Assembly: GCA_006503475.1 (NCBI GenBank)
Contig: RSEH01000204.1
Location: forward strand, 24,279-88,278
Direction of reading: 5' to 3'
Length of the DNA stretch: 64,000 nucleotides
DNA from: Stentor roeselii
Taxonomy: Eukaryota > Ciliophora > Heterotrichea > Heterotrichida > Stentoridae
Part shown: positions 9,848 to 64,000 of the stretch, piece after piece
Numbering within the stretch: position 1 is the first letter of the stretch
Layout of the letters: every line of letters starts with the position of its first letter
The notes under the pieces: model-generated
Told to the model about the DNA's origin: nothing
Seen by the model: only the letters and a program-made list of their open reading frames with translations
The model's database searches: none
Position numbers and translations under genes: made by a program

Positions 9848-10198
9848 TGCATTCGCCATGCTTAGAAGGCCTTCAGTGTCGTGTTTTAATTTGAAGTTTT
9901 CGTCTGGGAACTTCGCTCCGTAAATGCTCCACCCGCCTGTTCCGTTTCCATTTGTAAAGTCTCCACCTTGGCACATGAACTTCGGAATGACTCGGTGAAA
10001 TACGGAACCTTTGTAACTTAGTGGCTTACCTTGAAGCTTTATTTCACTTTCGCCTGTGCACAGCTGACGGAAATTCTCAGCGGTCTTTGGAACTACGTCG
10101 CTACGCAACTCGAAGACGATTCGGCCTAAGGAGACTTCTTTACCTGATATGTCGAAGAAGACACGTGGAAGCTTTGTTGAGAAAAAACGACCCAGCAT
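9650..10198 (-). CDS. cyclophilin-type peptidyl-prolyl cis-trans isomerase, copy 1
   Basis: Catalyses proline cis-trans isomerisation in protein folding. The 182-residue protein is a single cyclophilin domain after a short N-terminus ([11 protein letters not shown]) that could act as a weak mitochondrial presequence. All active-site positions are kept: FHRVI (catalytic Arg69), [24 protein letters not shown] and CPWLDGKH with Trp135 (needed for cyclosporin binding in CypA) and His140. Stop is TAG. A second intact copy lies at 43,333-43,881 and a decayed copy at about 13.3-13.76 kb. The next gene starts 2 bp after the stop codon. Confidence 0.96.
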
Positions 10199-29973: not shown

Positions 29974-30508
29974 TATTAATAGCTTTGGAGTTAGGCTTTT
30001 TTGTTTGTGGAGATGAAGGGTTAAGAAAATAATGGAAATTATTTGGGTTTTTATCATGTTAGGATGGAATTTCATGGATTTTGAAGGATTTGAATTGAGG
30101 TATTTTGGAAGGTTTGGAAAAAAGGATTGGGATTCGTGTGGATCTGATCAGAGGGAGAGTGGCTTGAATGGATTCAGAAATGAATGTGAAGTAGAAAAAT
30201 TTTGATTTTGATTTTAATGGAAAAACTTTGAAAATTTATAAATAGCTTCAGTTTCGTATTTCGTGATTTGAAGATTTTTCAGGAGATTTAATAAAATCAT
30301 GATTCTGAGGTTATTGAAAATCTCACCTTTCAGTATTAAGAATTTTTTTATTGTACTTGGACACTAATCATAAGAATTTTTTTTTAATTCGTATTTAGAA
30401 TAGTTTTTTATTGAAGTCTTCCATTTGTTGCACATCTAGATAATTCTGTCCTCATTCACATTTTCAGGTATTTTTGTGTATTTCTTGAAATGAATATCTT
30501 TTTAATAA
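29974..30508. other. divergent intergenic region
   Basis: 535 bp between the zinc-finger start and the WD40 start. The half next to the zinc-finger gene (30,000-30,200) is G-rich and C-poor on the plus strand, that is G-poor in that gene's sense. No additional gene seen. Confidence 0.5.
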
Positions 30509-31702: not shown

Positions 31703-31717
31703 TAATAATTTCCCGCT

Positions 31718-32272
31718 ATGGATAAAAATTTTGAATCAAGCAATAAGTTTGAACTCGTTTACGACACAAGCCGCAACCCGGGAATTCAAGAAAGGTTTAA
31801 AATTCCGAAACAATGCAAAAAAGCTTCGGCGACGAACCCTGTGACTCCGCTTTACTCAAGCAAAATCGTTGAAGCTAGTCAGTTGGAAACTAAAGGAAAG
31901 TCCAGGTTTTACAGAAACTGCTCTTCAGGAAGTCCTACCCCGAAACATTTGCAGGTCTCTGAATTCATGATTGAATCTGAATTGGTACCTGTAAGGACAA
32001 GAGGCACTCAGATCTTTTCTCAAGAAAGGGAAATTTTTGGAAATCATGGGGAGGAGTTTATTGAATTGTTTGGAAATGAAGGACCTCAGTATTTTAGAAT
32101 TGTTGAAAATAATAAAATCGCTGGAATTGACTTTGAAAGTGCAAGGACTACCAGTCAGGTTGAAAATGATTGCCAGACTGATGAAAGTCAGATTGAATTG
32201 GTTGTTGATAAGTTTCGAAGAGAAATTTTGACTTGGCTTGATGAGAAGGAAAGGGAAAGAGAAGTAACTTGA
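31718..32272 (+). CDS. unidentified protein, 184 aa
   Basis: ATG at 31718, TGA stop. The N-terminal 100 residues are basic and Ser/Pro/Asn-rich (a YDTSRNPGIQERFKIPKQCK block), probably disordered. The C-terminal 85 are acidic and partly helical, ending VVDKFRREILTWLDEKERER. No family is recognised. It lies 15 bp behind the WD40 gene on the same strand. Confidence 0.75.
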   Translation: MDKNFESSNKFELVYDTSRNPGIQERFKIPKQCKKASATNPVTPLYSSKIVEASQLETKGKSRFYRNCSSGSPTPKHLQVSEFMIESELVPVRTRGTQIFSQEREIFGNHGEEFIELFGNEGPQYFRIVENNKIAGIDFESARTTSQVENDCQTDESQIELVVDKFRREILTWLDEKEREREVT

Positions 32273-41935: not shown

Positions 41936-43332
41936 TATTATTTTAAATTTGCCTATTCAATAGACCTTCTAATTTCCATTACTCAGAATTAATCAGATTC
42001 TTAGCTGACTTAAGTTAAATAATCAAAAAAAGTGTAATGATTTTGAGTTTTCCTAAAGAGGTTCTTGCAGTACAGAAATGCATTCAGGAAAAAATCTCTT
42101 ATATTCTTGAAATTTTCTGTAAGTTTAATAGCCCGATATACTCTCTTTCATCTTTTCAAATTCTAATCATGCACTAAGTATCGGACACAGTTTTTATCAC
42201 CAGGGTCCTTAATCATTTCTCCCTTTTATCTCAAACAGTTTGCTAAAAGAATAAAATAAAGGTATTTTTCACCTGTTTATATAATTATTTCTTTCAGGGC
42301 AGGGGTAAGTCAAATCTATACTGCTTAGATATATCAATTTTTTATTAAAGTCATTATGGGAGTCTAAATACAAAAAAACATTCCCTATTCTTGTTTTTCT
42401 TTCATCCGCTTAAATGTCATCTGAAATAAAATCAACCTTCTGGCTAATTCAGTGCATTTTTCGTTGATTGAAGTCCACTGTTTTAAATCTCGTATTATTT
42501 TAGGCCTTGATTCGCTTTTTAAGTAGTTTTATAGCATGGGATGAAGTTTTTTTTTCAGAACTTTCTAGTTTTCTGAAATTTTTTTGCTATTTTCTGAATG
42601 AATTGCTTGCTTTTTAAATTTACTGATTGAAAAAATAGGCTTGAAAGAGAAATAGTATCGATTTGCATAGATAATCCTGAAATTGAAGTGATCCATGATT
42701 TCACATAAGATTCATTGCTTCGGCAGAGCTAACACTGCATTTCTGATGCCATTTTGCAGTCTTGAATCTAGCAGGACATATTATGTAGACTATAACACGG
42801 ATTAGATAATTAGCTGATAGTTTGAATTCAAGAACGTAAAATTAACTTTTTATTAAGGAATAGACTTCTTTAATTTAGGTTTATAAATAGTGATTGAATT
42901 TGTCTAAGAAAATCTGGTTGAAGCTTTGAATATTAGTGGAATTTGATCATTTAAATAAAAATGATTGACTGGGCAAATATTAAAGTAATAAAATATAAGT
43001 AAAGTATCTAGATCAGTTGAAGAAGGAATAATACTTAATTTGTTATACTAAGTATCTAAAATGTTTATTTTAACTATTTAACCTTTTGCATCAAAAATTA
43101 TATAGAAATTATTTGAAAATCATTGAATAATGGATTGAAATTATAAGGTAATGTATTGATTGAACCTTCAATTCAAAGAATCTTCACAATTCTGATTATA
43201 GATTTATAATATAATGAACTCTGATATAATGTTGTAAGTAGATATGTTTTGATTTATTACAATCATCAGGGTTTTACATTTTTGTTGATTAATAAAAGCC
43301 TTATTTTGACCTTCTGATTTCTCCTCGATTAC
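41936..43332. other. long AT-rich intergenic region
   Basis: About 1.4 kb between the start of the ATPase gene and the stop of cyclophilin copy 2. The minus-strand frame in phase with the cyclophilin can be read through it, but stop codons occur about once per 17-18 codons, close to chance for this composition, so I do not call a gene. Confidence 0.5.
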
Positions 43333-43881
43333 CTAATTATTTTGAGTTAATTCTCCACAGTCTATTATTAAAATTCTTTCTCGAGTGGTGCCTGAACTGG
43401 TCCCCAAAGGTTCAATTTTTCTAAGAACATCCATTCCTTCAATAACCTTTCCGAAAGCTGTGTTTTTTCCATCAAGCCAAGGGCAAGGGGCGAAAGTGAT
43501 AAAGAACTGAGATCCGTTGGTATTGGGACCATCATTGACCATGCTGAGCACCCCTGCCTGGTCATGTTTTAACTCGAAGTTCTCGTCTGGGAATCTGTGA
43601 CCATAGATGCTCCACCCACTTGTTCCATCCCCTTTTATGTAATCCCCGCCTTGGCACATGAACTTCGGAATCACTCGGTGAAATGGTGAGCCTTTGTAGG
43701 ACATGGCCGTATCTTTGATCTTTATGCCTTCATTGTCTAAGCAGAGCAGACGAAAATTTTCTGTTGTATGGGGAACGATATCTGCTCGCAGCTCGAAGAT
43801 TATCTTACCTAATAATACACCATTTGACTGAATCTCGAAGTAAACTTTGGGAAGATTTATTGAGAAATTGCGAAGCGTCAT
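43333..43881 (-). CDS. cyclophilin-type isomerase, copy 2, with altered active site
   Basis: A 182-residue paralogue of the 9,650-10,198 gene, same length and collinear, with a TAG stop. The fold signatures [25 protein letters not shown] and CPWLDGK are kept, including catalytic Arg69 and Trp135. Several positions that line the CypA substrate pocket differ: SMANAG has become SMVNDG, and the His of WLDGKH is Asn140 (WLDGKN). The protein may have changed substrate preference or reduced catalysis. The N-terminus (MTLRNFSINLPKVYF) is short and not clearly a targeting signal. It lies isolated between AT-rich gaps of about 1.4 and 2.2 kb. Confidence 0.95.
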   Translation of the reverse strand: MTLRNFSINLPKVYFEIQSNGVLLGKIIFELRADIVPHTTENFRLLCLDNEGIKIKDTAMSYKGSPFHRVIPKFMCQGGDYIKGDGTSGWSIYGHRFPDENFELKHDQAGVLSMVNDGPNTNGSQFFITFAPCPWLDGKNTAFGKVIEGMDVLRKIEPLGTSSGTTRERILIIDCGELTQNN

Positions 43882-46043: not shown

Positions 46044-49000
46044 TCAAGTCCTAGTAATATTTAATTTTGGTTCAAGAGCTACGGCATCTGCATCAGATAC
46101 ATTACCTATTTTTTCAGCAGCAATTATCACCTTATTACTACATTCTTCTGGACTATTCAAAGTATTTTTTTGCTTGAATCTTGTCATAATTTTTTCTAAC
46201 TGTTTCTCAAAAAAACTCATAGTAAACCCAGCGATTCCAAATAATCCAGAAACTGTTCCGAGCAAAGCCCCAGCAAAAAAGAAAAGGTCCTGCTTTAAGA
46301 GTCTTTTTGTAATAAGAACACTTGAATTGATATCAATTAAAAGTTTAACATAAAAGTTAGCAACGAATGGAAGTTCTTCAGTGATATGTTGACTTCCTTG
46401 AACAGGGCTGCTCTTCTGAGAAATATGATATCCAGTCACATCATTTTCCCATTGATTAGACTCGGACTCAAACAAAGAAGGGGTGGCTAAGAAGTTAAAT
46501 TCGTTTGGAACAGATCCAATGAAGACATATTGACTATTTGGTAGAAGTACTGTTGTTACTGAACTCTCTTCATCAGGAATCGAAGAACTTGCTTTCATTG
46601 TCAGTTGAATCCCTGAAGTGTAGCTGAGACTTTCAGAGATGTTGAAATTTAATTGGGCACCTGTATTGATTTCGCCGTGCTCACAAGTTACTTGAATAGT
46701 GCAGGTCTTATCACTATCAATTTTACAAGTAGTTGTAATATCAGAGCAGTTTATGTTTACCAAGTAAGTTTTGATTGATGGTGCACATTTAGAATTTTTT
46801 ACACATTGGCCGCCGAAGGAATCCAGAGACAGTTCGAACGAAAGTGATTTTGACTCAAATGATGTGGATTCCATTATGATTAAAGGCACCTGACCTTTTG
46901 TTTCTTGAATGTTTGCTTTCGCGAATGTAAAAATAGCTGTGCAGGTCACCATGAGTGACCCAAGGATAAAAATAACAGTAAAAAGTCCTCCAATTTTTGT
47001 CTGTTTCTTTATGATATAGGCTCCTTGTTCATAATTATGGTTAAGATCATATAAGTCAAGTTTTTCTAAGTAAGTACGCAATTTATTTATAACCAAGCAA
47101 CAGACAACAAGAATAACACTTGGAATAACCACTGCAAGTCGAAATATTAGTAAATCTTCTGAAATATCAGGTTCTTTATAAGATGAAGGCTGAAAAGAGT
47201 TAATTCTTTGTGTTTGACTTTTAGTAGATGGGATTGTGCTACCGACTGGGCAAAATGAATTTTCAGGGCAGGGTAAACAATTTTCCGCTCCTGTTTCGTT
47301 ATTGTAATGGCCCTCAGGACAAGGAATGCATTGAAAAATACTTGATGCTGCATTTTTATTGTTATAAGTTCCTGGACCACACTCTTGACACTCAAAACTC
47401 CCTTGCTTGTCGTTAAAGTAACCTTTTTTACACATTTTGCATTCACTACCAGAAGAATATGTGCCTGCAGAGCAAAGGGCTTCACAGCCGATTTCATCGC
47501 ACAAGTCCTCAATATCGAACTTCGCAAAAATAGGATTTCCTACCTTATGACTAATAAAATTCTCTCCACCCCGACCTCCTCCATAAACATACAAAAGCTT
47601 ACCAAAATAAACAAATCCAGCTCCGAAACTAATATAATCGATTTGCGCCTCAGATTTTATAAATTCTTCTTGCCCAAAAAAGCTTATAGTATTAACTGGA
47701 TTTTGAAACCAGTACTCGCCTCCAATGCTGATTAAATAATCTCCAACCCAAACTTTGCTAGAAAATGCAGCCGAATCTGACTCCTCGCTATATTCTGAAT
47801 AAAACAATTCCCAAGTCATAGACGAAAAGTTAAAAAAATCGATTTGATCAGACCCATAGCCTACTTCCTGACATCCAAGCGAAACAAAGAAAAGATCATC
47901 ATCAATCCAACAATAAGGTGAACTCACTTTTTGCAGTCCTTCATCAGAAAGTAGTGAAAATTGATTATTGCCAATATCATACTGCCAAAGTTCATTCGAT
48001 TTAACTTTATTTCTTTCCCCTCCATATAGAAAAACTTTGAGGTTTTTCACAACCAAACAAGCACCCTTCGCAGGACTTGGGTTGATCAATGATGTCGGTT
48101 TGAGTTCAACCCAGTAATTTGTGATTGAGTTAAAAATGAACAAGTCATTTTTCAATTCCGTGCTGCCCATTCCTCCCCAGATCACAAAAATATTGCCTTC
48201 TGAACCTGCTGCATGAAGATATCTCTGACTCGGAATATCACCTTTTGCTGTGACTAACTTCCAGACTTCAGAGTTCAAGTTTAAGGTCCAGATATCGTTG
48301 AAAAGAGTCTCTGAATCGATTCCTCCGAAAATATAGAGCTTTGAGTTTATTGCTACCATTGAATGGTGAGATCTAAATGGAGGCTGCTCAAAATGATCGT
48401 TTATCAATTCATGTTCGAAGTCTTTTAAAGTTATTTTACCAAAAGTATTTGAAAAAGAGTATTGAGCGCTTCCAAGGTAATTTCCAAAAATGTACAAAGA
48501 ATCTTCAATTATAACTATCTTTATGAAAATAGTTTCATCAGAATCAGGTAAAAGTTGTAAGTTTTTCCATTGTTTTTTGTCATCTATTAAACTGATCCTA
48601 ACACTGTCGAATATTTCATCGTTTGTTTCGAATTTTTCTCTACATATCAGGTAAAGTTGGTCTTTATATACAAAACTTGAAGTGAATTTAGAGCATAAAA
48701 AGAAACTTTTCTTATCAGAGATGACTGTCCAACTGAGAGTTGTCAAAGAATAGCTATATAAATATATAAGGAAATCATCATCATCATAGATGCCTCCAGT
48801 ATGCAAAATATTCCCATCATAATAAACAAGAAAAGGGTAATGCGAAATATCTGGCACTTCCCCATCATCCGGAAGTTTTTCCCATTCAAAATTGCTACAA
48901 TTAAGCCTACTTATCCTTTACCTGTACAATTCAATCAGATTATCATCAGAATTATTTTCTGCCAAAACCACAAAATACTGGATTTCCTCCTCAACATAAG

Positions 49001-49439
49001 TAGTAAAAACATTAAACCCATCAGGAAGTGGAGTATTAAAAGTTTTAACCTTTTGCCACTTTTTCGTGTCAAAATCAAATTCCCATAAATCATTTTCATA
49101 GCCGAGATCAGTTATTCCTCCAAACACAAAGAGTTTTGACTCAGTAAAACTTGAGAAGCCTCCTAAAATATTTCGCGCTGCTGCTTAAAGTTTACAAGGA
49201 GCTTCCAGTGAAGTGACCATGACCTTTTCCCAGAAAGTAGTGTCTAATGAAAATTCCCAGAGATCGGCATAGAGACAATCGCTGCAATCTCCACCGAAGA
49301 TTGTGATGGAGTTTCTGGATTTGAGGTAAGTCATAAGTGGGTTTCCCCGTATCGGGGGAGGTGATCTGGGTTCAGGGACGAAATCAACTTTTAGCGAGAT
49401 ACTTACACATATGTCTACAAATAGCCACAGTGATACCAT
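46044..49439 (-). CDS. Kelch-repeat, cysteine-rich membrane receptor with two 15-nt introns
   Basis: Three exons, 49439-49196, 49180-48922 and 48906-46044, join in frame across two 15-nt introns to give 1,121 residues. A signal peptide (MVSLWLFVDICVSISLKV) is followed by Kelch repeats over roughly 45-600 (SITIFGGDCSDCLYADLWEF; KLYIFGGIDSETLFNDIWTL; LYVYGGG). A GCC2/GCC3-type cysteine-rich region (about 650-730) contains CKKGYFNDKQGSFECQECGP and PCPEGHYNNETGAENC. Helices lie near 752-774 (FRLAVVIPSVILVVCCLVI), 805-830 and 1052-1080 (FFFAGALLGTVSGLFGIAGF). This is a ciliate-type surface receptor; the ligand is unknown. Stop is TGA. Confidence 0.88.
48907..48921 (-). other. 15-nt intron
   Basis: Minus-strand sequence GTAAAGGATAAGTAG. 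It contains an in-frame TAA; removal joins ...LIELYR to LNCSNFEW in frame. Length and GTA...TAG ends match the heterotrich 15-nt intron class. Confidence 0.9.
49181..49195 (-). other. 15-nt intron
   Basis: Minus-strand sequence GTAAACTTTAAGCAG. It contains an in-frame TAA; removal joins SLEAP to SARNILGGFSSFTESKLFVF, restoring the first Kelch repeats. Confidence 0.9.
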
Positions 49440-52400
49440 TTATAAACCAATCGAAATAAGGGATAGTTCTAAAAAGTAAAATGGGTACATCGTCAAGTAT
49501 CAATATTTCGAGATGTTAAGTCTTGGATTGTGAGGATAACTTAAATTAAAAAATCATCTTTGATCTGGTTTAAGATAGGACTAGTTTGAGTGATGATTAG
49601 TTAGTTGATTATGTTTGTTTATATTAATGATTTGAACTCCTTATAGATTTCTTTTTTTTAGGGGATTTAGCTTGAAGATAATAAGTTGATTTGCATCTGA
49701 GTAGATGAATGAATTGGACGTGGTATTATTTAATTAAGCAAAAATACTCAGGATGTTCTAAGGATTATATTAGACCTTGTAAGGGCTTCATTTGTTCTTG
49801 TGATATTATATTTAGGTAATTCATAATTTTGACTAAACTTTTTGATTATTTTTCTATAGTCTATCTTCAATACTAATCTAAGCAGAATATTCATACCTGA
49901 TAGCGAAAAACTTTATGAAATCTACCTAAAAGTTTATTAGTCAAATGATTTGTCTACCAAAAATGTTGAGATAATCTATTAATTTCATCTAATTTTTTAC
50001 CAATTACCAATATTATGGTAGATCTAATAGATATAAATATATAAACATTTTGAAGAAGTATAATAGAGCTCATGGTTTAAATTATCATTAAAGACCTGAT
50101 TCGCTAGAATAAATTTATAAATTTTCATATCTGAATGGATTACGGCTGATTTTTCCCAGCAAATGAAATTATTTTCTTTATTTAAAACATGATGCCGTAC
50201 CTTCTACCAAGACTATTCGAAATTTGATTTCTGGACTACTTAATTAAACTATTTTAACTTTTAAAATATTGAATTTCTAGAATTTTGAAATTATTGTTCC
50301 TAGACACCGAAAACTTATTCCTAGCAGACGAAAATTATTCTAAAATTGTTCTATTGAAAAATATTTGCGAAAATTTAAATAGAAATATTCAGAAATCAAT
50401 AAATGGTGAGCAATTCATAGTCTTCAATATTATGATAAAGAAATTTTCTCAATCTCTAAATATTTATTGCTTTTTCATATGTAACCCTTCCTGATACTTT
50501 TTATATTTAAAAGATTAAGGATTTAATTTATAGGTTTATTATGAAGTTTTATTCATACTAACTTATATTGATTTAAGAGTGATTAGTTGACATAAAATTA
50601 ACTTTAAATGTGAGATACAAAATAAATTTATCTAACTGTTTATTTAATTTCTCTTAAATCTTGAATATCAGTAAATTTAATTTTTTAATTTTCTCAATCA
50701 TTTTTCAATTCATTTCATTTCCAATCGAACTCAACTCAAATGCTATTTATTAAAGAAAAGGATTTTCCATTCAAAGTTACAGTGTAATTGCTTTCTTAGA
50801 CTTTATGGAAAATCCGAAAAAGTGTGTTCTACTCCAAAAAAACAAATTTTGAATTTCCAGGGAAGTTTTGACCTTTCTTGGGTATGAATAATAACGTTTT
50901 CCATTTAAAATTGATCTCAAAAGTCTTCTAATATTGAATTGAGAAAGTTGATTATGGTAATTAAATTTATAATATTAGAAGTGATGAAAATAAATGTGTC
51001 AGAATCACTTTTTAGTTAATTTATATCGAAATTACCGCAGTTGATATTGTATGCTTTAGGAAATCTCTTGATTATTGTTACTCAAAGTAATATAAGCACA
51101 GAAAGCTATGTTTAATAGATAAATATTACAAAAAAGAACTTGATTTTGCTTATTGATCTTATGATTAGCTTAATATAAAATCGAGTCCAGTGAAACATCT
51201 TGAAGTTACTGAGTCCTCAAACAAAATTTATCAAAGCCATACTCATGTTCAAAATAGCTATGTTAGAATCTAAATAAAACAGAAATATTATTGTCAGAAT
51301 TATCCTTAAAAATCAATCTAGTTCCAAATCTTCGAGATAAACTCTTCACCAAAGTCCCGTTTGTTTGAATCCCCTTGCAGCCAAAACCAGATCCGATAAC
51401 GAAAAAAATAACTATAAACATATTGGATCCATAAACAAGAAAACCAGTAGCAAAAATATATTCAAGAAAAACAAGTGGCAGATTAAAATACAATAATAAA
51501 AAAAAGCGCTTCACTGACTATCAATAAACTCTTTTACTACAACTGCAGAAAATATTTCCTTTTCTTGACATATTAAAATCGATTTAACATTTTTTGCTTC
51601 CATTAGATCCATAAGCTATATTTAAAAGAAGCTGAAAAATCATGAAAAAAGCCTTAAATTTTCTTCATTCAATGAAAAACCATCCAAATCAGAAGGAATC
51701 ACTGATTGATATCCATTAAACTTCGAGCACAGAAAGTCAACTGACGATCATAACAACACAGTATAACTCAAAATTATCTAGTTCTTCAATAATTTTCCAA
51801 TTTCCTTAATCAAGCACCTAAAAATCATATGCTAATCATGTCTAATTGAATAAAAAGATGACTGCCATGCTTGAGACTCCATCTTCTGAGAATGGAAATT
51901 AAAATATATTAGAAAAACTACTGAGTTTTATTTAAGTATATGATTTTTTATCTTTTGATTTAACTATCTAAGGACTCAGAAATGAGATTTACAGAATCAG
52001 CCAATAAGAAAGCTTAAACAAACCATTCATTCGGCTTATTTATTTTGTGTCTTTCTAGAAATGATTTGACAGGGAATCTCAGAAACCATCTGGAAAAAAT
52101 CTTCTCTGGACAAATACTTAATGATGATAAAAAGAAGATTCTTTATAAAAGCTTGAAATTTTTTTTATATTTAGGTATTAAGTTTCCATAGCATACTTTC
52201 TTCATGAAAATAATCTTCCTAATGGTGTAGGTTTTTTTTAATCTTATGGTTCGCAACCAAAATACTTTTTGCTCATTACTTGCAAGTATTCCCTAAATAT
52301 TATCTTTTATGTTGTAGTAGTCAAAGAATAAACCCTATTTCTCTATAAAAAAGCTTTTTATTTATTTTTGTTTCATTTTTTGGATAACTCTTTTAATAAT

Positions 52401-52690
52401 AATCGAGACTTGTTTGTCTAACCTCTTAAGCTCAATATTCCTGGTCTCTAGATCCCAAACTTCTTTTTCTAATTACCTTATATTTTTTCTGATATGTATA
52501 TATTTCTATAGTTGTACTGAGTTAGTACTACCCAAAAATTTCCTTAAAATTCAAATTATTTTAACATTAACATGATTTTGCAATTCCTGATAAATTCAAA
52601 AGTGAGCTGATCCTCAACGATGGTCTCAGATGTTTAAAAGTAATAGCTTTTCAGGCAATATCAGAAATTCTTAATAAAACCGAAAGATAT
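49440..52690. other. long AT-rich gene-poor region
   Basis: About 3.2 kb upstream of the Kelch receptor gene. It contains a few open stretches, the longest an 80-codon minus-strand frame at 51,263-51,511 with a hydrophobic start and no ATG at its head, and a 69-codon plus frame at 50,285. Both are within what chance gives in DNA of this composition. No RNA gene, transposon or repeat was recognised. Confidence 0.4.
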
Positions 52691-52694
52691 TTTT

Positions 52695-53450
52695 ATTACT
52701 CTTCGACCGGCAGACCTTCTTCTTCAAGAGCTTCAAAAGGCGAGTGACTATTCATATTACTTTGAAATAAAGCAGTCCAGCTGGCATATAAAAAGTTAAT
52801 TTGAGACTGTTATCTCAGAACATTGAGAAGATCAAGAAAATATTAGAGGGATTCAAGGCTCATGATATTTGATGCTATCTTACTTTGGATTGTTTCTAAT
52901 GTTTCAAATTCTAACTTCAGGGCTTCAATGGTTTCTTGAAGATCAATTATCTTTAATTTCTTATTTTCTGGTTGAAATTCGATAGGTTCCTCAATGATTT
53001 GATAATATTTTCAGTATTTTCTGAATTTCGAGTTCAAGCTCTTGAATTATATTGATGGACATTTCATTAGTTTTAGTTTCTGCATCAAAATACTTGGTAA
53101 AAAACCCAATTTCGTTTCAAAGTTCATCAATTATTAGCTGGCCTAGTTCCTTAAATTATAACAATGCTTCATATTTTAAATAACTCTTTCCTCATATTAA
53201 TACAAATTTAAAGTTTCAAGCAGGCAAACATGGTTTTAATCTATAGTTCCTTTTTAAAATCTTTCCTTCAACAGAAGTAACAAAATGTACCATATTTCTA
53301 GTAGCCATAAAATAATTTATCATAGTTTCAAAAATATTGAGTTTATGCAGGTCAAGGAACCTAATTCAGTTAAAAAATGTGAAAAATTGACAAGTTGCAA
53401 GTGCTCTCGTACTTATTCATAAAAAAAATAAGACTAAAAGATTTTTAGAT
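52695..53450 (-). pseudogene. probable decayed coiled-coil gene
   Basis: On the minus strand one frame, with a single shift near 53,015, reads as a helical protein. It includes a 50-codon stop-free coiled-coil stretch (IIEEPIEFQPENKKLK onward, about 53,000-52,840) and a GC-richer C-terminus, SNMNSHSPFEALEEEGLPVE, before TAA at about 52,696. About eight in-frame stops (TGA, TAA) interrupt it, roughly one per 30 codons, fewer than expected by chance here. A decayed gene is the simplest reading; no intact relative is present in the window. Confidence 0.45.
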
Positions 53451-53884
53451 ATTTTATTATCATGACTGTAAACCAAGAATCTCTAATAATGTTAAATCTC
53501 AAAGTCTCGAGTGTGATGAGCGATTTTAATATTAATTTTGTAGGCAGAAACCAGATTGAAGTAGGATAGAAATATATTTCTAGTCTTATAGCTGTCAAGA
53601 TTTTGGCTTTAAACTTAAACAGAACTTTAATTTTTTAATTCTAATCAAGTTTATTTCCTTAATAAATCAATATTTCACACAGTCTTCACCTATCTTAAAA
53701 GGTTTACTTTTAGTTTCCGAGGAAAGGTTATATCTAAGAGATTTTAAAGAAGATAATTTGTACAAACAGAAAAAATTTATCTATTAATTGATTAATTAAA
53801 TATATTCTTTGTCTGCAGCATTTTATTATTTTACGATAAATTAAACGACATATAAATAAAATTTTGCCTATCTAAATTTTCTCA
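53451..53884. other. AT-rich 3' flank
   Basis: About 430 bp between the probable remnant and the TAA of the giant receptor gene. No feature recognised. Confidence 0.4.
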
Positions 53885-54927
53885 TTAATCTTGGTCACTT
53901 TGTTCGATATCTCTCATTTCTTTATCTTTTTTCTTTTTTTCGATCCATCCTACTACCTTTGAAATCACAAAAATTTTAATGAATATGAAAATCACTGAAA
54001 TGATAAAAAGCCTGAAAAAGATGGCAGTGATCGTATTAAAGATCCACATGTAACTAGTTTCTGTCGGCAATTTAAGTGCAAAAATTGAAATACTCCAACA
54101 AAAGTAAGCCATGACGATACAATAGACACTTATAAGGACAATGTTTGCAATCTTATTTCTTTTTATAATTTTAAGTTTTCAGGTTTCGAAAGGTTAAAAT
54201 TAAGAGGCTTGTCCTTGACTATCGCAGGAAGGACTTGAACTATGACACTCATAATAACTGAAGAATAAACCATCACCAAAAAATCCCGAAAAGTGTAATT
54301 TTTAATACTATTGAAGATCCCTGAACTTTTTTTGCTTTGACCTTTGTAAAACAATCCTATAAAAAACATTTTCCCAATAAAAAGTGTGAATATTAACGTG
54401 CATCGAAGAGCTCTTGTGTGCAAAGGGTCTCGTAAGTAGAACAAACTTAAAAATTCATGGTTATCTAAAAAAATCCTAATTTTTGACTTAGTCTGTTCTG
54501 ATTCTTGGTTTCCTTTGAGGATATCTGAAGAGACTTCTTTATTATTTTCAATCTGAGATGGAAATTCTTCATTGTATGTTGAATTCATTTTTGGAAGATA
54601 TTTCGAATTTATTTTTGGAAGATATTTTGAATTTAAGTCATATTCATTCATAGCGTTGAAATTATCTTGTGAGTCTGATTTTAGGTGTTTTTTTACTACA
54701 GAGAACTTTAAATTGATGAGTTCATGAAGTTCATTTAAGTCTTGCTTATCTTTTTTTACAGTCAATATAATGAAAATGATATAAACTATGATTATTCCCA
54801 AAGAAAAGTAAAGCCCAATGGCATTTGTAGCATTAATATTTTTCAAGGCTTCAACATTGACAGTCTGGTCAATATTTGAGTCAGGCACAAATTTCGAAGA
54901 TTTTTCTTTTGAAGAGAAAAAAGTCAA
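53885..54927 (-). CDS. transmembrane region of the giant receptor
   Basis: Two frames joined by a -1 shift at the AAAA run 54,169-54,172, just before a TAA. After the GPS motif comes a first helix (LYFSLGIIIVYIIFIILTV) and a cytosolic linker containing a small SKYLPK(I/M)N duplication. More helices follow: CTLIFTLFIGKMFFIGLFYK, FLVMVYSSVIMSVIVQVLPA, IANIVLISVYCIVMAYFCWS and FFRLFIISVIFIFIKIFVIS, then a charged tail ending EMRDIEQSDQD and TAA. Five helices and no PLAT domain: shorter than animal polycystin-1 but like other ciliate REJ/GPS proteins. The frame is intact on both sides of the shift. Confidence 0.7.
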
Positions 54928-55472
54928 GTGATTACATTGACAAACAGTTGAATCTTCATAGGTCTTGACAAGTGTGCATCCTTTAGTACTCCACTTCTCT
55001 CTCTATTATCCAAGAAAACGCATGAAAAGTTCTTCATCTGCTGCGCTATAACTACAGGAATCGTAAAAAATAAAAAAGAATCCTTAAGGTTCACCTGCAA
55101 CGGAAGGGCCTGAGTCTTCGAGAACAAACTAAGTCCAACAATGGTTCCACTCGAACTATTAACTGTATTCTCAACATTGACAAACCCGACGGAAACCCCG
55201 ACATTTTCAGGCAAATTCTTTGAAAAGCCACTCGGAAGTGCGATGGACACAGTTTCACTAGCTGAGCTTTTTAAAGTCATGCCGTTGATCGAGGTACTTT
55301 TTGAAGAAAAGACATCTACAGTGATTTGACTTGAACTTAAAGTCTGCTGCTGCTCGTCGACAGTGCCGAGTAACGTGCCTTTGCTGACCTGGTCGATAAC
55401 TGAGGTGATGGAAGTCATTAGTTTAGTTTGGTTTGCTGCGCTTTCAGAAGTAACTTTGCCTGAGTTGGTCAT
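54924..55472 (-). CDS. GPS-motif region of the giant receptor
   Basis: Beta-rich stalk followed by a GPS (GPCR proteolysis site) motif. The first half of the motif (FSCVFLDNRE) is in one frame. The second half (EKWSTKGCTL ... CQCNHLTFFS) continues after a -1 shift inside an AGAGAGAG tract at 54,997-55,004. Together they give the canonical C-x-F-(W/L)-D ... W ... GC ... C-x-C-xHLTFF pattern, where autoproteolysis occurs in adhesion GPCRs and polycystin-1. A 17-nt GT-AG segment could remove the tract, but it would delete the conserved FLDN block, so I reject it as an intron. Confidence 0.7.
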   Translation of the reverse strand: MTNSGKVTSESAANQTKLMTSITSVIDQVSKGTLLGTVDEQQQTLSSSQITVDVFSSKSTSINGMTLKSSASETVSIALPSGFSKNLPENVGVSVGFVNVENTVNSSSGTIVGLSLFSKTQALPLQVNLKDSFLFFTIPVVIAQQMKNFSCVFLDNRERSGVLKDAHLSRPMKIQLFVNVIT

Positions 55473-55477
55473 AATCT

Positions 55478-57612
55478 TCAGAAAACCCCTTGAGACGATG
55501 ACATCGCGATTTCGAGTGAGTTGGACCTGGTGAGTAGAGAATTTATTATTTCATCTATTGACATCGAGTTGTTCACACTGGAAAGTTTCGGGTTTACTGT
55601 CAGGGAGTCAAGCAGAGATATCATCTGGTCTGTTACGTATGATGAAGGATAGATCGAAGTTGAGTAGATTGATAGGTAATATGTGCAGTTTTCGAATGTT
55701 GACTGAAGGGTTTCTTCAGAGGTTGAGTTCTGATCGCTTGTGATTAACTCTCGGTTTAACACTCCGTTTATTAGGTTTCCTAGAAGAGAAGGATAGTCTT
55801 TTAAAAGGATTGTTGACAGAGCTTTAGATGTTTCTTCTAGAAAATCATTGGAGTTGAAATTAAGATCTATTGAAACTTTAAATTTTTCAGTTAACTTGAT
55901 GAAATCGTCTAAACTGTCGAAAACCTGGCAAATTGCCATCAAAGGCTCTCCAAGGTAAGAAAAAACAGTTTCAAACGAGTTTTTCTGTGACTTTTCACTG
56001 AGAAAACTCTGCTTTCCTTCAACGAGGTACCCGAAAGTAAAGGCCAGGGGGTAGTCTTCTTCTTCATCAACCCAATCAGCAGCCTTAAAATTGAAAGTTG
56101 TTTGAAGTTCAAGACCTTCACTGGGACTGACCGAAAAGTATCTGATTTTTGGCGGCTGATTCACAGTAAACTCGTAAAAAAAATTATAAGTAAAGCTCTT
56201 GTCTTTAACTGAAAATAACAGCTTATAAGCCTCTCCAGGAGCTGTTAAAGACATATCAATCACCACTGCTGGGTTACTTTCTCCTAATTTCACAAGATTT
56301 CTATTTTTTTCTTTTAAAACCCGTTCAGTTTCAAAGTAGTTTCCAGATACAAGAGCTGTCAACGAAGTGTCTTTTGACCTGTCAAAGCGTTTCGGTTGGT
56401 TTCTTTCGAAAGTTTCGATGATCGAAACACTCGGCACTAATCGATCAACGAATTCACCTGAAAAGAAGGCCTGACTGGTTTTCACTACTTTTTCATTCAA
56501 TCCTTCCAATAAAACAGTTGAAGAAGCGTTTAGGAAAAATGCGTCGAAAAGTCTAGCTTTTACGAATTTTTTGCTGATGAAAAGAGAACTTTTATCAGAA
56601 GTATAAGAAAAATTGCAAATGCCTAAACAAATCCATGAAAACGTCAGTTCTTCTCTGTTGGGGTCGTAACTTTGCGAGGCATCAATTAATAAATATTCCA
56701 AAGTAGAGATCATTCCTAAGGCATTTTTAATGATTATCACTGGATCTTCAGGTTCGATTGAAACTTGAAGAGTTTCATTTCCAAAGACCTGCGAAGTTTC
56801 CTCAAAGACAGTAACTTCAAATTTTATTATAGATGGTGGAAACGTGCCCTTAGGGATCAGAATCGAGTCTCCTGGCGTTTTTTTTTCCCAAAATGCATTC
56901 GTTTCATTTAAGAGGAATTCTCCTTCGATGAGTTCCCAATTGAATGAGAAAATGGGGTTTTTGAAGCAGGTGGAAATTTTCGTGATGAAGAACTGGCAAG
57001 TTTCACTCACTGGACATGAATATTTTATTGAAGAGTCAGAGAGAGGGACGACTCCCGATGAGCCGATTAAATTGATGACAAATCTTGCTAAATCAGTCAA
57101 TCCGAACCTATTTTTCACTGAAAGAACGACGTTTAAGGTCCCTGTGGTTAGATCCGATGACTGAAAATTGAAGATACTCTTGTTTCCATAGTCATTCGAG
57201 TATTTTTCTATTTCAGATATTCCAGAAAATTCCCACTTCTACTCAAGCAGTTCCTTAAATGACCTAAACGACAAAGAACCATCAACAGTTAAATTCTCAC
57301 AAGAGTAAAAAACTGTTGAGGCCGCCTTGATCACAGCTGTTGGCTTCGGAAGCGGGTAAGAGTAAAACAAATCAAATGAGAGGCTAACTTGAAAAAACCC
57401 GCACTCAGAATCGATTCCTTTTAATTTTTCACTGACAAAGCTGATGGATTCATTAGTAATCGAGTATCGATCTCCAAGGGAGTAAAGGACTGACTGTTGA
57501 TCTGGCATTTTGCATTTCCAGCCTGAACCGAACTTCTCAAGGTCGCTTTTCATGATGATTTCTCTGCAGTCGACTTTCAATATTGAAACATTAAAATTAA
57601 TCCTGGATGTCG
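55478..57612 (-). CDS. PKD/REJ-like extracellular region of the giant receptor
   Basis: About 700 residues. After the 16-nt intron the frame reads TSRINFNVSILKVDCREIIM and continues to a TAG at 57,239-57,241, beyond which the same frame goes on with KWEFSGISEIEKYSND. A PKD-type block, LLIDASQSYDPNREELTFSW, followed by CLGICNF, then REJ-like sequence with many Thr/Ser/Asn N-glycosylation sites, leads to the GPS region. REJ domains occur in sperm receptors and polycystin-1; ciliates carry many. A -1 shift at the TTTT run 55,482-55,485 (GTT TTC TGA) joins it to the stalk. Confidence 0.7.
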
Positions 57613-57628
57613 CTGCTCTTCAACCAAC
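57613..57628 (-). other. 16-nt intron
   Basis: Minus-strand GTTGGTTGAAGAGCAG. Removal joins ECQMCTP to TSRINFNVSILKVDC and skips an in-frame TAA about 15 bases beyond; the +1 frame change equals 16 mod 3. Confidence 0.75.
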
Positions 57629-59554
57629 GGGTGCACATCTGACATTCTTCGTCTGTAAGAAAATAGTTTTTATCGCACACACATGAGTCTGCATCGTAGG
57701 AGTAAATTAAATTGTTTTACATTTGCAGGGACGATTATTTAAAGTTAATGATACGCAAGTGGTACAGTTCTCTTCGATATCATCGAAGGAGGAACATAGG
57801 AGGTCTGGGTGCGTTTTGCATGATTGGCTATGAGAGCAGCCGAAATTACAGGAAGAGTTGCATTCGAAGCACTCGGAGTTCACTGAATACTCATTTGCCT
57901 TGCAGTTTATTAAGCTTGAGTCGAGATTTAAGGTATCGTGGTCGATTGAATAGGAATAAAGGCTCAGTCGGTGTATGTATCCAGTCATATAGGATAAAGG
58001 CGATTTTCCAACTGAGAAATTTGATGACAGAGGCTGGTTAAACACTCTGTTTTCGAAAGATGCCGAAATGCAAAGCTCTTTATTCAGGTAAACATAAAGC
58101 TTCAGGTCAGGAGAACTGAAATTCAACGACCACGCCACCAAAAACCATTCTTCAGTTGATATTTTTACAGATACTGACACGGTTTCAGAACCGTAAAAGT
58201 CTGATACTGAATACTCCAGCATCAAAACTGTAGAGTTGTTAAGAGTATGACCCTTAAGTGAAAGGAATGACGAGGAATTGTCAGCGAGCTCCAGGATGGA
58301 CCCACAACAAGTGAGAAGGTTAAGGTAAATAGCAAAAGGTGAGTGTTTGATAGATGAACAGATTCAGTGTTGAACAAGCTTCCAATAGTTGCTTGAGAGT
58401 TGTTGAAGTAAAGCCCTCTTTGCCATAAGAGCCAAGGGTGGAGCTGGTCATCATTCGGGTTGTTGCTGTTGTTTTCCCCTAGATACAAAACAACTTGATT
58501 TGAAGAGTAAAAGTCAGTATTTTTTGAAAATTTGAAGTCGAAAATCGTGGAAACATTTCTAATGCAGGAACTATTTAACAAGTATTCTCCTTCAGAGCAG
58601 TACTTCATGCAAAGTCCTTCTATGCTATTGACAAATGAATCTTTGCACTTTTCACATTCGTAAACAACGCCTGTGCAATCAACACATCGATCGACGCACG
58701 GAAGACAAAAGGAGCCTTGTTGAAAGAAATAATTGTCGCACGTGCATAATTCTGTCAAATTATCAAACGTAGAGTTCAAGATGCATTCAGAGCACACTTC
58801 ATTATCCAGCTTAACACAAGATTTGCAGAGCCTGTCAGAGCAAAGTCGGCAAGAATCACTGTATCTGCAAGTTTCACAAGAAGAGTTGCATGACTCGCAT
58901 GACGATTTACTTGGCAGCAGGTTCCTTTCGCATTCAGATAAGCATATATTTGCCGGCTTTGGACACGAGCATTGTTCTAAGCAGGCCCCGATGATGTCAG
59001 CCTGTTGAAAAGCAGAGGAGTTTCTGAAGTACTCAAAAGAAAAGACCCACCACTTTTCGCTTGAAGGTCCAAGACTTATCTTATCCGAGGAGTTAGTCTT
59101 TAAAAAGTCCGAGTCAACTGAACCTTCGAATTCCTTTGAACCTTGCAAGATCAGTTTCACATTAAAAACTTTCCTGAAACTGGAAAAAGTTACCACGAAG
59201 CTCTGCCAGGTTCCAATCAATGTGGACCCAGTGTCAAAGTTTAAAGAGTAATTCCCTTGAATTCCTCGAAATGTCAGAAAACAACAACCTGGTCAGAGAT
59301 GTTGATTTTCAGTTCCTGCTGATTCTCTGACTGCTTCACTAAAATCGTTCCCAGGCTCAAAGGAAGTATCCAGAGACTCAAGGTACTGTCAACTCCAAAA
59401 GCGCTATAGTTGAGGCAGTTTAACTGAGAAAAGTACCAGCCCCGGGCAAACGCAGCTGTTGTGTTTTCTAAGGCGTCTTGAAAACTGAGCAGTTTGTCAG
59501 CGGAAACTGCAAGGGAAGCCAAACTCTGGAAATAAACAGAGATTCTGCTTGTTT
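57629..59554 (-). CDS. LamG-like and furin-like modules 3-5 of the giant receptor
   Basis: Starts after the 16-nt intron with SRISVYFQSLASLAVSADKL. A LamG-like fold (SLWILPLSLGTILVKQSEN; LIGTWQSFVVTFSSF) is followed by cysteine-rich furin-like repeats (CNSSCETCRYSDSCRLCSDR; CTCDNYFFQQGSFCLPCVDR). A further LamG-like fold follows (RGLYFNNSQATIGSLFNTES ... WFLVAWSLNFSSPDLKLYVY), then a second cysteine cluster (CNSSCNFGCSHSQSCKTHPD). Three -1 shifts, near 59,278, 58,346 and 57,715, interrupt it. The alternating module order is preserved across each break, which is why I treat the frames as one gene. Confidence 0.65.
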
Positions 59555-59570
59555 CTGTCGATACACAAAC
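59555..59570 (-). other. 16-nt intron
   Basis: Minus-strand GTTTGTGTATCGACAG. Removal turns the module start into LNFKTSRISVYFQ, matching the start of another module in the same protein (INFKSSEIASS), and corrects the frame by 16 mod 3. Confidence 0.78.
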
Positions 59571-60752
59571 TGAAGTTCAAGGTGTACAGCAGTGGACATT
59601 CAGACACACAAAGCAACCCGTATTGTTTGTAGTTTCCCGCGCATCCCATGCATTCATAAACCGTTGGCCCCATGCATTCGCTGCATGTTGGAGAACAAGT
59701 GTTTGAGCAGTTGTTGTTTGGACAGCTTGAACAGCTGTTGAAGTCTTCGCAGCTGCTGCAACGAGAGTCGAAACAAAGAGTTGTTTTGACGTAAGTAGAA
59801 CAGTAATTGATTCCTGCACAACTCGAGCAGTTGCCGAATGCGTAAAAATCGGTCAGTCCGCAGGGGTTTAGACAACTTTCTAAGGATGATGGACAATTGC
59901 AGGTACTGCAGGAGCCGAGCTCAGAAAGCACCTGGCTCTGGTCTAGCAATTCAGCTGAATAAATGATTTCGTAGATCCATCCGGTGAAACTCGAGTTTTT
60001 TCCTTTTCCCACTGTTAAGAAGTTCTCGTCGTCTTGAATTAGTTTTGATGTTAAAACTGTTGATGATTGCTGAGAATTCGAGTAGAGGTAGCAGGTTGTT
60101 TGCTCGTTTGAATAATCAACACTTATGCCGAGAAAAGACCATGAGCTTAATGTGAGCTGGCTTGAGGATGATGCTTGATATTCGCTTGAAGTTTTATTAA
60201 AAAAAACGACTTTAGGCCCTTCTATCGTTAAACTTATGGAAAACATAGAGTTCTTGTAGAGAAACTTTGAGTATTTTTCAGGTCGAAGCCACACCCCGAT
60301 GAAGAAGGCTGAAGAAACCTGGAACTTGGCACTGGAAACCATAAAATTTCTTTATCTTCATTTCCGAAGTAAAATCCTTTGAGTAAGCCAGGTATGGGAT
60401 CAACAGTTATGTCGATGTTCGGATAAGTGCCTTGAGTGTACGTATTAAGGTCGATAAGAGGTGAAGACCTTCCGTCAGAAATCGATCCTTTCAAAGACTC
60501 AAACCGAAATCGAAGCCACAGATTTTCATCTTCGACGCAAGTATCATCAACATCAGTGAATAGTAAAGGACATGTATTAAAGCAGTTTTGATATAAAACC
60601 TTACAACAATAAGAACAATTTTTGCAAGGAGTGTTGTCCTCACATGTTCCACAGTGACTTCTGGACTCTTCACAGTAGTCTGGAGTGATTGAATGACTCA
60701 ATGCGCAGTTCATGCATATGGTGGAGGAGCAACTTTCAGACGTTAACTTCAT
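59571..60752 (-). CDS. cysteine-rich and LamG-like module 2 of the giant receptor
   Basis: Two overlapping frames. The first begins MKLTSESCSSTICMNCALSH directly after an in-frame TAG; upstream in the same frame lies clearly coding sequence (KISTGSDSTMAVYLFGFSPT), so this Met is probably not a real start. Cysteine-rich repeats lead into a LamG-like fold (GLLKGFYFGNEDKEI, then after a -1 shift at the TTTT run 60,343-60,346, MVSSAKFQVSSAFFIGVWLR). The aligned spacing to module 1 (YVSTSQFFLSPEYSMAVWLK) fixes the shift position. A further cysteine cluster (CDSRCSSCEDFNSCSSCPNN on the corrected frame) ends the module. Confidence 0.65.
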
Positions 60753-60893
60753 CTAAGAGTTGAAAAATGTAGGAGAAAAGCCAAACAAGTAAACCGCCAT
60801 TGTTGAATCTGACCCTGTCGATATTTTAAAAAGACTAGATGTCTGGTCAGCTAGGTCTTGTTTTGTTTATAGCTGGATGAGTATAACAGCTCG

Positions 60894-63077
60894 TTATTCA
60901 CATAAACATTGTAGAGCATAGGGACATAGTTGAACAGATCGTAATGGTAAAGTCCGATGCTCCTGTTGTAACTTATAAAAGAAAAGCTCTTTGATCACGT
61001 AAAGGTTCCAGTCTGAAACATTATGTTCCAGAGATTTTAAAACTTCAGGTGAAAAAGGCACGATTTTCAAGTGAGTGAAGTTAAATTCAAAGCCATCAGA
61101 AACGAATCCGATTTGAAAGTAGCTTCCCTGCAGCATTTTCAGCCAAACAGCCATTGAATACTCAGGGCTCAGGAAAAACTGAGAGGTGGAAACATAGCTC
61201 ATATTTTCAGCGAAGAAGCACCCACGGTCTTGGAGAAGTTTTCCTTCGGTTCCACTCTGGGTCAGGTTTATCAGTCCTGGGCTTGAAGCAATTTCAGATG
61301 ACTTGAAATTAATTTTTAAAATCCCTGACATCCGACTGCAAGACGTGTCGTTAGAAGTGTACATGATTGGGCATTCAGAGAAACAATAACCCTCGGTAAG
61401 ATAAGAACTGCTGCAAGACGAGCATTTTCCAGGACTGTTTCTTGTGCAGTCTTTGCAATTCACATCATGACATGAGCCACAACTTTCTCTTTGGCAGCTG
61501 TCGCAGGTGGAAGGACATGCTGTGCATGTTGTCGAGTTTTTATAATAAAACAGTTCACAGTCATCGAGGCAGTTTCCATTCAGCTCTGTCCAATACTTGC
61601 ATCCAGAGTCGCTTATGAAGTCTCCTAAAGACGCCATGTGATCAGTGGGCGCGTAAGCTGCGAAGTAAATCCATCCAAGCATGTAATAATCATTTGCGAA
61701 CCCGAAGTAAATCTCTGTAAAAGAATCGCTATGATAACTTTCTGTAAACGTGCCAGAAACTGACTGCTCGTTATTTAAAAAACTCTTGAATTCTGTCAAA
61801 GACGTTGACTGAAAAGTCAGGACCAACTCTAAGAAGAACCATTCTTTTCTTGTGAACTCTCCAAGTGACTTTACCTCAGAGTGAAGTTTAAAGATTATGC
61901 TGCTTTGGTAGGTGTAAAGGGAAAATAAGTCAACTTTTGACCAGATTCCAGAGTATTCTGATAATTCCACATTGATCCAGGCCATATACGTTGGCTCTAA
62001 ATTGTAGTAGTTTTTGTTTTGCGATTTGTACCTCGAGTTGTTACCGTTGAAATACTTTCCTCTTCCTGGAGAATTCATGACACTGTTGAAATCGTCAGGA
62101 GCTAAAACACTATCTGACCCGAATATCGCAGAGAGAGTTAATCTTGGGGTATCAAAAAAGTAGTAAAATCCGATGTTTCCTTCATTTATCACACATTCAT
62201 TGCTTTTCACGCTGTAGAAGTCGGGGCATGAATCTGAAGTAACTGAACAAGTTGGAGAGTCTAAACATAAAAGCTTTCTTGAGCGCCGCCTACAGAGAGT
62301 TTCTATGCATTTCGCATCTTTGCATTGTTTTAAATTTTCGACTGTTGCTAAGCAGGGCCGCTCTTCGTAGTCTAGAGTCTTGAATGGGCTGATAAAGTAA
62401 GAAAAATGATTGATGAAACCAACGAAAGAACTCACTCTACTTTTGCCGATTTTCCATAATTTGATATTCGATAGCTCATGATGTAGCTTGAGTTTTTCTA
62501 CTTGAGAATAGCCGTTAGTTAGGTTTATTGTTAGCTCAGGAAACGATGAACTTCTCTGATCCAAAATTATTTCAAATTTTATCCATTTGGAATAGTAATT
62601 CTCAAGTACAAGGAAGTAATAAAAATTATCCATAAAACTAAACTTCAAATAACTATTCTCAAGTTTAAGCTCAAATATTCCGAAATCATCTGAAACTAAG
62701 GACCCTTCTTTGAATATCCATATATTAAAGGTTAAGATATGATATTCATTATCCTTATTAGCCTTTGGTATATCGATTGAAGAATTTTCATCAAACAACA
62801 TACCATATTTTGTTAGAAATATAGGAAACTTTGAATCTTTATCATTTTCCAGCTTGGATTCCCAATTTTTGCCCTTCAATATTGTTTCAGATGACAGAAA
62901 AATAACCCCCTCTGAATCTTTGTAACAATAATTTTCTATTGTGAGATAATTCTCAGGGCACTCATTAATGCAATGATCTTTGAATATGAATCCATCCTCA
63001 CATGATTCATGATCAAATAAATTTTGATGACCAAATGCAAAGACCATATAAGTAAAGAGACTCAGAATATTCACCAT
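60894..63077 (-). CDS. N-terminal 727 residues of the giant receptor (signal peptide, modules)
   Basis: Uninterrupted frame from the ATG at 63,075-63,077. A signal peptide (MVNILSLFTYMVFAFG) is followed by a cysteine pair region (CEDGFIFKDHCINECPENYL) and a first LamG-like fold. Then come short Cys repeats (CKDAKCIETLCRRRSRKLLC), a second LamG-like fold (YMAWINVELSEYSGIWSKVD) and furin-like repeats (CPSTCDSCQRESCGSCHDVN). A third LamG-like fold begins with a GCFFAENMSYVSTSQFFLSP block. The frame ends in unrelated-looking codons after about 60,990; the true reading continues one base over as SYNRSIGLYHYDLFNYVPML. The protein is extracellular, probably adhesive or a recognition receptor. Confidence 0.78.
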   Translation of the reverse strand: MVNILSLFTYMVFAFGHQNLFDHESCEDGFIFKDHCINECPENYLTIENYCYKDSEGVIFLSSETILKGKNWESKLENDKDSKFPIFLTKYGMLFDENSSIDIPKANKDNEYHILTFNIWIFKEGSLVSDDFGIFELKLENSYLKFSFMDNFYYFLVLENYYSKWIKFEIILDQRSSSFPELTINLTNGYSQVEKLKLHHELSNIKLWKIGKSRVSSFVGFINHFSYFISPFKTLDYEERPCLATVENLKQCKDAKCIETLCRRRSRKLLCLDSPTCSVTSDSCPDFYSVKSNECVINEGNIGFYYFFDTPRLTLSAIFGSDSVLAPDDFNSVMNSPGRGKYFNGNNSRYKSQNKNYYNLEPTYMAWINVELSEYSGIWSKVDLFSLYTYQSSIIFKLHSEVKSLGEFTRKEWFFLELVLTFQSTSLTEFKSFLNNEQSVSGTFTESYHSDSFTEIYFGFANDYYMLGWIYFAAYAPTDHMASLGDFISDSGCKYWTELNGNCLDDCELFYYKNSTTCTACPSTCDSCQRESCGSCHDVNCKDCTRNSPGKCSSCSSSYLTEGYCFSECPIMYTSNDTSCSRMSGILKINFKSSEIASSPGLINLTQSGTEGKLLQDRGCFFAENMSYVSTSQFFLSPEYSMAVWLKMLQGSYFQIGFVSDGFEFNFTHLKIVPFSPEVLKSLEHNVSDWNLYVIKELFFYKLQQEHRTLPLRSVQLCPYALQCLCE

Positions 63078-63779
63078 TATTATAGATCAAGTAATTCTAA
63101 ATCATCATGGGCTAAAAAATGATTTTTTATTCTTAGTTGGAAGGGATTAATAATCGATTGACTCTTTAGATATGGCTCTACTCCTGCTTAGATTGGTTTT
63201 ATAATGAAATAGAATTCAGATTCAGCAAACATAAAAGATTTAGAAATGTAATTCCTTTATTATAGGTTCAATTTGATATATATATTATTGCTAGAAAGGG
63301 CTGAAAGTGGTTTCTGATGGATTTAAGTTAATATATAATTATGATCAAGTAAAATTATTAAAATTATTGTAGGAATTTATCTATAGTCTCTCTCTCATAG
63401 GCAAATCTGCATAGGTATTTCATTTATATATATTCAATCGGTATTAAAAGGCTCATTCAAAGTGCTAATCAGAAATTGAACTATAATAAATTTATTGGTC
63501 TTTATCATCTAAAAAAATATATAATTACTTATTCAATAAACGCTTATATATTGAGTTAATCCTAATTCAGTAAGTGATAGCTATCTAAGTATTTTGCATA
63601 TTAAATTTAGAAAAATTTAATTACATTTATTTCCGTTATTTAGTAAGATTTTAGTGATTTCATAGATAAATTCTCTATTAATTCATTACAGAACTTACAT
63701 CTAATAAATAATTATTATTAATCACTGGCTACACTATTCTCTATTTGAATTTGAGTAATAAATTGGTGGAGTGGCCAAG
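63078..63779. other. AT-rich subtelomeric region
   Basis: About 0.7 kb between the last gene start and the telomere array. Very AT-rich with TATATA tracts; it should contain the promoter of the giant receptor gene. No repeated subtelomeric element is evident from one end alone. Confidence 0.6.
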
Positions 63780-64000
63780 GGTGTTAGGGTGTTAGGGTGT
63801 TAGGGTGTTAGGGTGTTAGGGTGTTAGGGTGTTAGGGTGTTAGGGTGTTAGGGTGTTAGGGTGTTAGGGTGTTAGGGTGTTAGGGTGTTAGGGTGTTAGG
63901 GTGTTAGGGTGTTAGGGTGTTAGGGTGTTAGGGTGTTAGGGTGTTAGGGTGTTAGGGTGTTAGGGTGTTAGGGTGTTAGGGTGTTAGGGTGTTAGGGTGT
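63780..64000 (+). repeat. telomere repeat array (TGTTAGGG)n
   Basis: About 27 perfect tandem copies of an 8-base unit run to the last base of the window; the G-rich strand points to the right, as expected for a right chromosome end. The complement CCCTAACA is the heterotrich telomere unit as I recall it for Stentor and Blepharisma. The first partial copy follows gtggccaagg. Confidence 0.97.

Follow-up and report, generated by a model that had tools for sequence, protein, structure and literature searches.

A giant surface-protein gene beside a Stentor roeselii telomere carries mixed disabling lesions and is probably a young pseudogene

A giant surface-protein gene next to a telomere of the ciliate Stentor roeselii is interrupted by frame changes of both signs and by in-frame stop codons, and is probably a young pseudogene. 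We analyzed 64,000 nucleotides (nt) of contig RSEH01000204.1 (assembly GCA_006503475.1, positions 24,279 to 88,278 of the forward strand; hereafter, the window), in which the subtelomeric minus-strand gene encodes a LamG/REJ/GPS giant receptor-like surface protein. A frame caller based on codon usage found 11 frame changes (eight –1 and three +1) and two in-frame TAG codons in this one gene (Table 1). The –1 sites fit neither the usual introns nor any frameshift signal that is known. We put the probability that the locus is a young subtelomeric pseudogene at roughly two in three (0.67). It is our inference that the organism itself carries these lesions, that the gene no longer functions, and that the genome holds intact relatives at other loci.

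The gene extends from an ATG at 63,077 to a TAA at 53,885 and is read away from the telomere. Its start is approximately 700 base pairs (bp) from the telomere, and no other gene was found between the two. A first-pass annotation of the window had placed the gene at 53885-60990, leaving out the first 2.1 kb, which hold the true start and an intact run of 697 codons. The gene begins with a signal-like sequence (by eye), followed by six LamG-like modules that alternate with cysteine-rich stretches, a REJ domain, a GPS motif, and hydrophobic helices (by eye). We defined the six modules by internal alignment and set their limits ourselves. The REJ domain scored 97.3 bits in a Pfam search with pieces of the protein (curated cut-off 25). 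With the whole read-through as the query, Pfam returned nothing beyond REJ and a single weak match; a query of that length lost GPS and LamG. The cysteine-rich stretches, previously described as furin repeats, are evident on inspection by eye, but the pieces scanned gave no match at E≤1 to any furin-like model of Pfam. One REJ-bearing piece that was compared with solved structures had no convincing relative; two hits (E 0.032) were both to dipeptidyl peptidase 8.

The set of frame changes and stops did not depend on the penalty given to the caller. The caller was trained on the codon usage of the window's other genes, and gave the identical 11 changes and two TAG codons at penalties of 6, 8, and 10, and with introns of 15 or 16 nt that have a branch-point A (branch A) allowed. 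It made no frame call in 30 intact open reading frames (ORFs) of at least 180 amino acids (35,310 nt), a control set that was chosen for being open. When single shifts were planted in genes of at least 900 nt (20 rounds), 340 of 340 were recovered no more than 120 nt away and with the correct sign, in test genes that were also the training set of the caller. The earlier statement that the other genes of the window are intact holds for these 30 ORFs, with the proviso that they were selected as open.

The eight –1 steps described in the first-pass annotation were all recovered. Each of the positions given there is inside an interval in which both frames are open, and the caller found the same eight. 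The exact bases at which these shifts occur are not fixed, because four of the eight –1 intervals are 73–142 nt wide. Seven of the junctions had been placed at runs of A or T. A run of at least three is present in all eight –1 intervals, with 6.67 expected by chance, which makes such runs uninformative about slippage.

Table 1. Positions in the window of the broken gene, its lesions, and related features. For each frame change, the interval is the stretch in which the old and the new frame are both open.
Feature	Positions	Strand	Basis or remark
Broken surface-protein gene	53885-63077	–	Codon-usage frame caller, Pfam pieces, module alignment
Intact 5' part, 697 codons	60987-63077	–	Two whole LamG-like modules and first part of the third
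Frame change +1 near 60,986	60896-60997	–	Openness of old and new frames; probable insertion of ~45-52 nt
Frame change –1	60853-60869	–	Frame caller, interval
In-frame TAG stop	60753-60755	–	Near end of LamG-like module 3
Frame change –1	60236-60354	–	New-frame LamG match from ~60,333, upstream of old-frame stop
Frame change +1 near 59,559	59499-59579	–	Contains 16-nt GT-AG string; not in first-pass annotation
Frame change –1	59276-59295	–	Frame caller, interval
Frame change –1	58224-58366	–	Inside LamG-like module 6
Frame change –1	57709-57719	–	Frame caller, interval
Frame change +1 near 57,602	57599-57622	–	Overlaps 16-nt GT-AG string; not in first-pass annotation
In-frame TAG stop	57239-57241	–	Inside PKD/REJ-like stretch (by eye)
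REJ domain match PF02010, best stretch	55775-56320	–	E 1e-27 for the piece
Frame change –1	55480-55553	–	Frame caller, interval
Frame change –1	54926-55005	–	Inside GPS motif
Frame change –1	54165-54181	–	Between hydrophobic helices (by eye)
Neighboring intact Kelch/ephrin-receptor-like gene	46044-49439	–	Intron control; start by eye
15-nt introns of the Kelch gene, GTAAACTTTAAGCAG and GTAAAGGATAAGTAG	49181-49195 and 48907-48921	–	Taken by caller with and without branch rule
Telomere array AGGGTGTT	63778-64000	+	27.9 copies, 100% matches; permutation of CCCTAACA; window ends in chromosome end

The frame changes were not significantly biased in direction. The gene had been described as having frameshifts all in the same –1 direction, a description that missed the three +1 changes (at 60,986, 59,559, and 57,602) and the two TAG codons (at 60,755 and 57,241). 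Eight of 11 changes are –1 (two-sided p = 0.23). The outcome of this test depended on how the +1 changes were counted: with one of them set aside the proportion was 8/10 (p = 0.11), with two 8/9 (p = 0.04), and with all three 8/8 (p = 0.008). An excess of –1 among the small steps is possible, given that the +1 change at 60,986 is probably an insertion and the other two are potential introns.

The pieces in different frames belong to one gene, as had been proposed. The GPS motif scored 37.9 bits in a single piece and 46.5 bits across the join, both above the curated cut-off of 22.5. LamG-like modules 3 to 6, each of which has at least one break, align with the intact modules 1 and 2. The score for Laminin_G_3 rose from 25.6 to 27.4 bits when the frames were read together, still just below its cut-off of 27.6. 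Pfam found the expected domain in two of nine pieces that span joins and no expected domain in the other seven, one of which had two weak unrelated matches. A tenth piece, an intact module used as a control, was likewise unmatched, and a missing match at a join therefore says little. Continuity at the remaining joins rests on internal alignment, codon usage, and reading by eye.

The mixture of lesions in a still recognizable gene argues for a pseudogene. Shifts of both signs occur together with two TAG codons, and the spacing of the lesions did not depart significantly from even (Kolmogorov-Smirnov p = 0.45). At the rate seen in this gene, 35 kb of intact coding sequence should contain approximately 42 frame changes, versus none observed in the set selected as open. 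The subtelomeric position of the gene also favors this reading. The mean codon log-odds was 0.136 before the first lesion and 0.139 after it. The decay would be recent, because codon bias is undiminished past the first lesion. We suppose that the protein would no longer have been needed and that the gene would thereby have been released from constraint; independent small insertions and deletions (indels) would then have built up along it, together with two or more nonsense changes and, probably, one longer insertion. A young pseudogene was one of the options raised in the first-pass annotation, and it is the best fit to the mixed lesions, the nonsense stops, and the intact codon bias, with sequencing or assembly error as a real rival.

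Several observations weigh against a pseudogene. There are only two nonsense stops versus 11 frame changes. If 5, 8, 10, or 14 substitutions are assumed for every indel, the expected number of nonsense changes is 3.6–4.0, 5.8–6.3, 7.2–7.9, and 10–11, and the probability of finding two or fewer is 0.24–0.30, 0.05–0.07, 0.015–0.025, and 0.001–0.003, respectively. The codon signal is without loss (seven intact genes had values of 0.132–0.222). The first 2,091 nt of the gene are free of lesions (P = 0.035). Finally, if one or two of the +1 changes are in fact introns, as they may be, the excess of –1 changes would be real.

No paralogue of the gene was found in the material searched. The protein pieces of the gene, compared with the 64,000 nt of the window, matched only the gene's own modules, and two scans of viral contigs gave no paralogue. 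None of the titles among the literature matches listed dealt with this gene or with frameshifting in Stentor, although this does not prove that no such work exists.

The rival that survives best is an error of consensus or assembly, which we consider unlikely but well worth taking seriously. In that case it would be an intact gene, close to a chromosome end, that belongs to a multi-copy family, and its sequence would contain uncorrected indels or be a mosaic of paralogues; contig ends can be poorly corrected. Such an error would fit the excess of frame changes over nonsense changes, which is beyond the expectation for neutral decay, and the undiminished codon bias. An excess of single-base losses would also be in keeping with error, and there may be one if the +1 changes represent introns and an insertion. 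However, the part of the gene nearest to the telomere is the clean part, and the two TAG codons and the probable insertion of 45–52 nt are unlike base-calling errors of the indel type. In addition, the 72 runs of five to nine equal bases in the gene need hold no lesion, and in the 30 intact genes the frames stay open across 355 runs of this kind.

Recoding of the gene, programmed or genome-wide, is unlikely, and we give very little weight to the idea that the ribosome shifts at these sites and makes the full protein. All of the frames look coding and have normal codon usage, the string TTTTCTGA is common to two of the –1 intervals, and some genes of Euplotes have as many as eight sites of frameshifting (PMC10235951, from an excerpt). 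Against this, the eight –1 intervals contain no in-phase heptamer of the form X XXY YYZ, versus 1.87 expected from 53 in 4,612 codons of seven intact minus-strand genes. The sequence TTTTCTG occurs unbroken in the gene at 62,901 and 57,229, and four times in 13,857 nt of intact genes. The two in-frame TAG codons are not accompanied by a frame change, and at least one +1 change cannot easily be put down to another cause. At three junctions (60,340, 58,352, and 54,998), evidence of domains in the new frame begins 70–120 nt upstream of the old-frame stop, whereas a shift near that stop is compatible with the domain evidence at the remaining eight. None of the 11 old-frame stops is preceded by AAA or ATA, and five of the 11 are TGA. 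The in-frame stops, the lack of a slippery heptamer, the +1 change, and the upstream shifts together contradict programmed –1 frameshifting, which the first-pass annotation had listed as an option. Similarly improbable, in our estimation, are recoding outside the mechanism of Euplotes, which would have to deal with at least eight non-canonical changes and two stops, and, less far-fetched, retention of the first 697 codons, which without the lost membrane part would encode a truncated, secreted protein of LamG-like modules.

Introns or germline inserts (internal eliminated sequences, IESs) that are retained in the sequence are a scarcely credible general cause of the breaks: introns of 15 or 16 nt give no –1 change and serve none of the eight –1 sites. 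Introns of 14, 17, or 20 nt at the –1 sites had been named as what would overturn the earlier account; the introns recognized in the window are 15 nt long, and 16-nt candidates were present only at two +1 sites.

The 16-nt GT-AG strings at 59,570 and 57,628 might be introns, although they are poor candidates. We counted GT-AG segments of 11–69 nt in the right phase at each of the 11 junctions. Strings of 16 nt were found in the right phase at two of the three +1 sites, with 0.47 of three expected (P = 0.059 for two or more), and the caller took both as introns once the branch-A rule was dropped. With a length of 15 or 16 nt and a branch A required, it took no intron anywhere in the gene. Of 8,806 introns in Stentor coeruleus, 92.81% have a length of 15 nt and all others 16 nt, most have the branch A at position 10 or 11, and 191 of 633 16-nt introns (~30%) are without an A at position 11 (PMC9505925, from an excerpt). 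Because ~30% of 16-nt Stentor introns lack this A, its absence does not rule out the two strings as introns. However, the strings are 50 and 56% A/T, in contrast to 75.63% for Stentor introns (same excerpt), and splicing at 59,570 would delete a cysteine that is found there in all six LamG-like modules.

The break at 60,986 is probably an insertion of approximately 45–52 nt, judging from the spacing of residues. The distance from the second tryptophan to the asparagine-rich turn is 38 residues in module 3, versus 21–23 in the other five modules. The 6-nt direct repeat CTTTAC is present at this break in copies 52 nt apart; repeats this long are common. An insert-like break flanked by a repeat that contains TA is reminiscent of the Blepharisma IESs, approximately three quarters of which have TA-containing terminal repeats, but the 6-nt repeat alone is unremarkable, and 52 bp is shorter than the first peak of Blepharisma IES lengths at 65 bp (PMC9942856, from an excerpt).

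We rejected repeat-bounded inserts as a general cause. Direct repeats of 5–9 nt were present at all 11 junctions, and at nine of the 11 their length did not exceed that of repeats at random positions in intact genes. At the other two, P was 0.04–0.05, uncorrected. From this analysis we retained only the spacing anomaly at 60,986. Over the join at 59,284, the spacing is 55 residues; the intact modules have 45 and 46, but two modules that have no join at this place have 50 and 60.

The genetic code, introns, and telomere of the window are probably Stentor-like. The stops of 41 stop-to-stop ORFs of at least 150 amino acids are 24 TAA, 9 TAG, and 8 TGA, a count that includes ORFs of the broken gene ending at breaks, and 30 ORFs are open over 35,310 nt with TGA as a stop, consistent with the standard code. 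Tryptophan is encoded by TGG (138 of 14,859 codons in ORFs of at least 180 amino acids, including those of the broken gene). The repeat CCCTAACA is the telomere repeat given for Blepharisma (PMC9942806, from an excerpt). In published excerpts, Blepharisma also has introns of 15 or 16 bp, but reads UGA as tryptophan.

Other features of the window include two pairs of similar intact genes with 70–73% DNA identity: 11347-12621 with 30503-31760 (WD40-like by eye), and 9640-10184 with 43322-43867 (cyclophilin-like by eye). An AT-rich region of approximately 4 kb (49700-53850) has no clear genes, with coding-like fragments at 52,850-53,120. A 21-bp tandem repeat of 7.9 copies (22721-22886) is within an intact ORF of 780 amino acids (20786-23128).

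If the locus is a pseudogene, it would be an ordinary case of gene decay next to a macronuclear telomere, in a window where intact genes are otherwise densely packed, and gene callers might break it up into a dozen spurious genes. If instead the gene were expressed through the breaks, Stentor would be one more lineage of ciliates in which frame-changing is pervasive.

Pseudogenes of large surface-protein families are a known kind of subtelomeric sequence, and the locus resembles them in being a large, modular, surface-type gene that is adjacent to a telomere and has mixed lesions. The protein is similar to REJ/GPS proteins of the polycystin-1 and sea-urchin REJ type in that REJ is followed by GPS and then by hydrophobic helices. 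It differs from them in the LamG-like and cysteine-rich modules in front and in having fewer C-terminal helices (by eye). With the stop-codon frameshifting of Euplotes it shares several frame changes in one ciliate gene. However, the Euplotes shifts are +1 or +2 and occur at stops, with AAA as the commonest preceding codon and ATA shown for +2 (PMC10235951, from an excerpt), whereas in the Stentor gene three junctions have the shift at a distance from the stop, the 11 stops lack a preceding AAA or ATA, and the old-frame stops include TGA, which is not a sense codon in the intact genes of the window.

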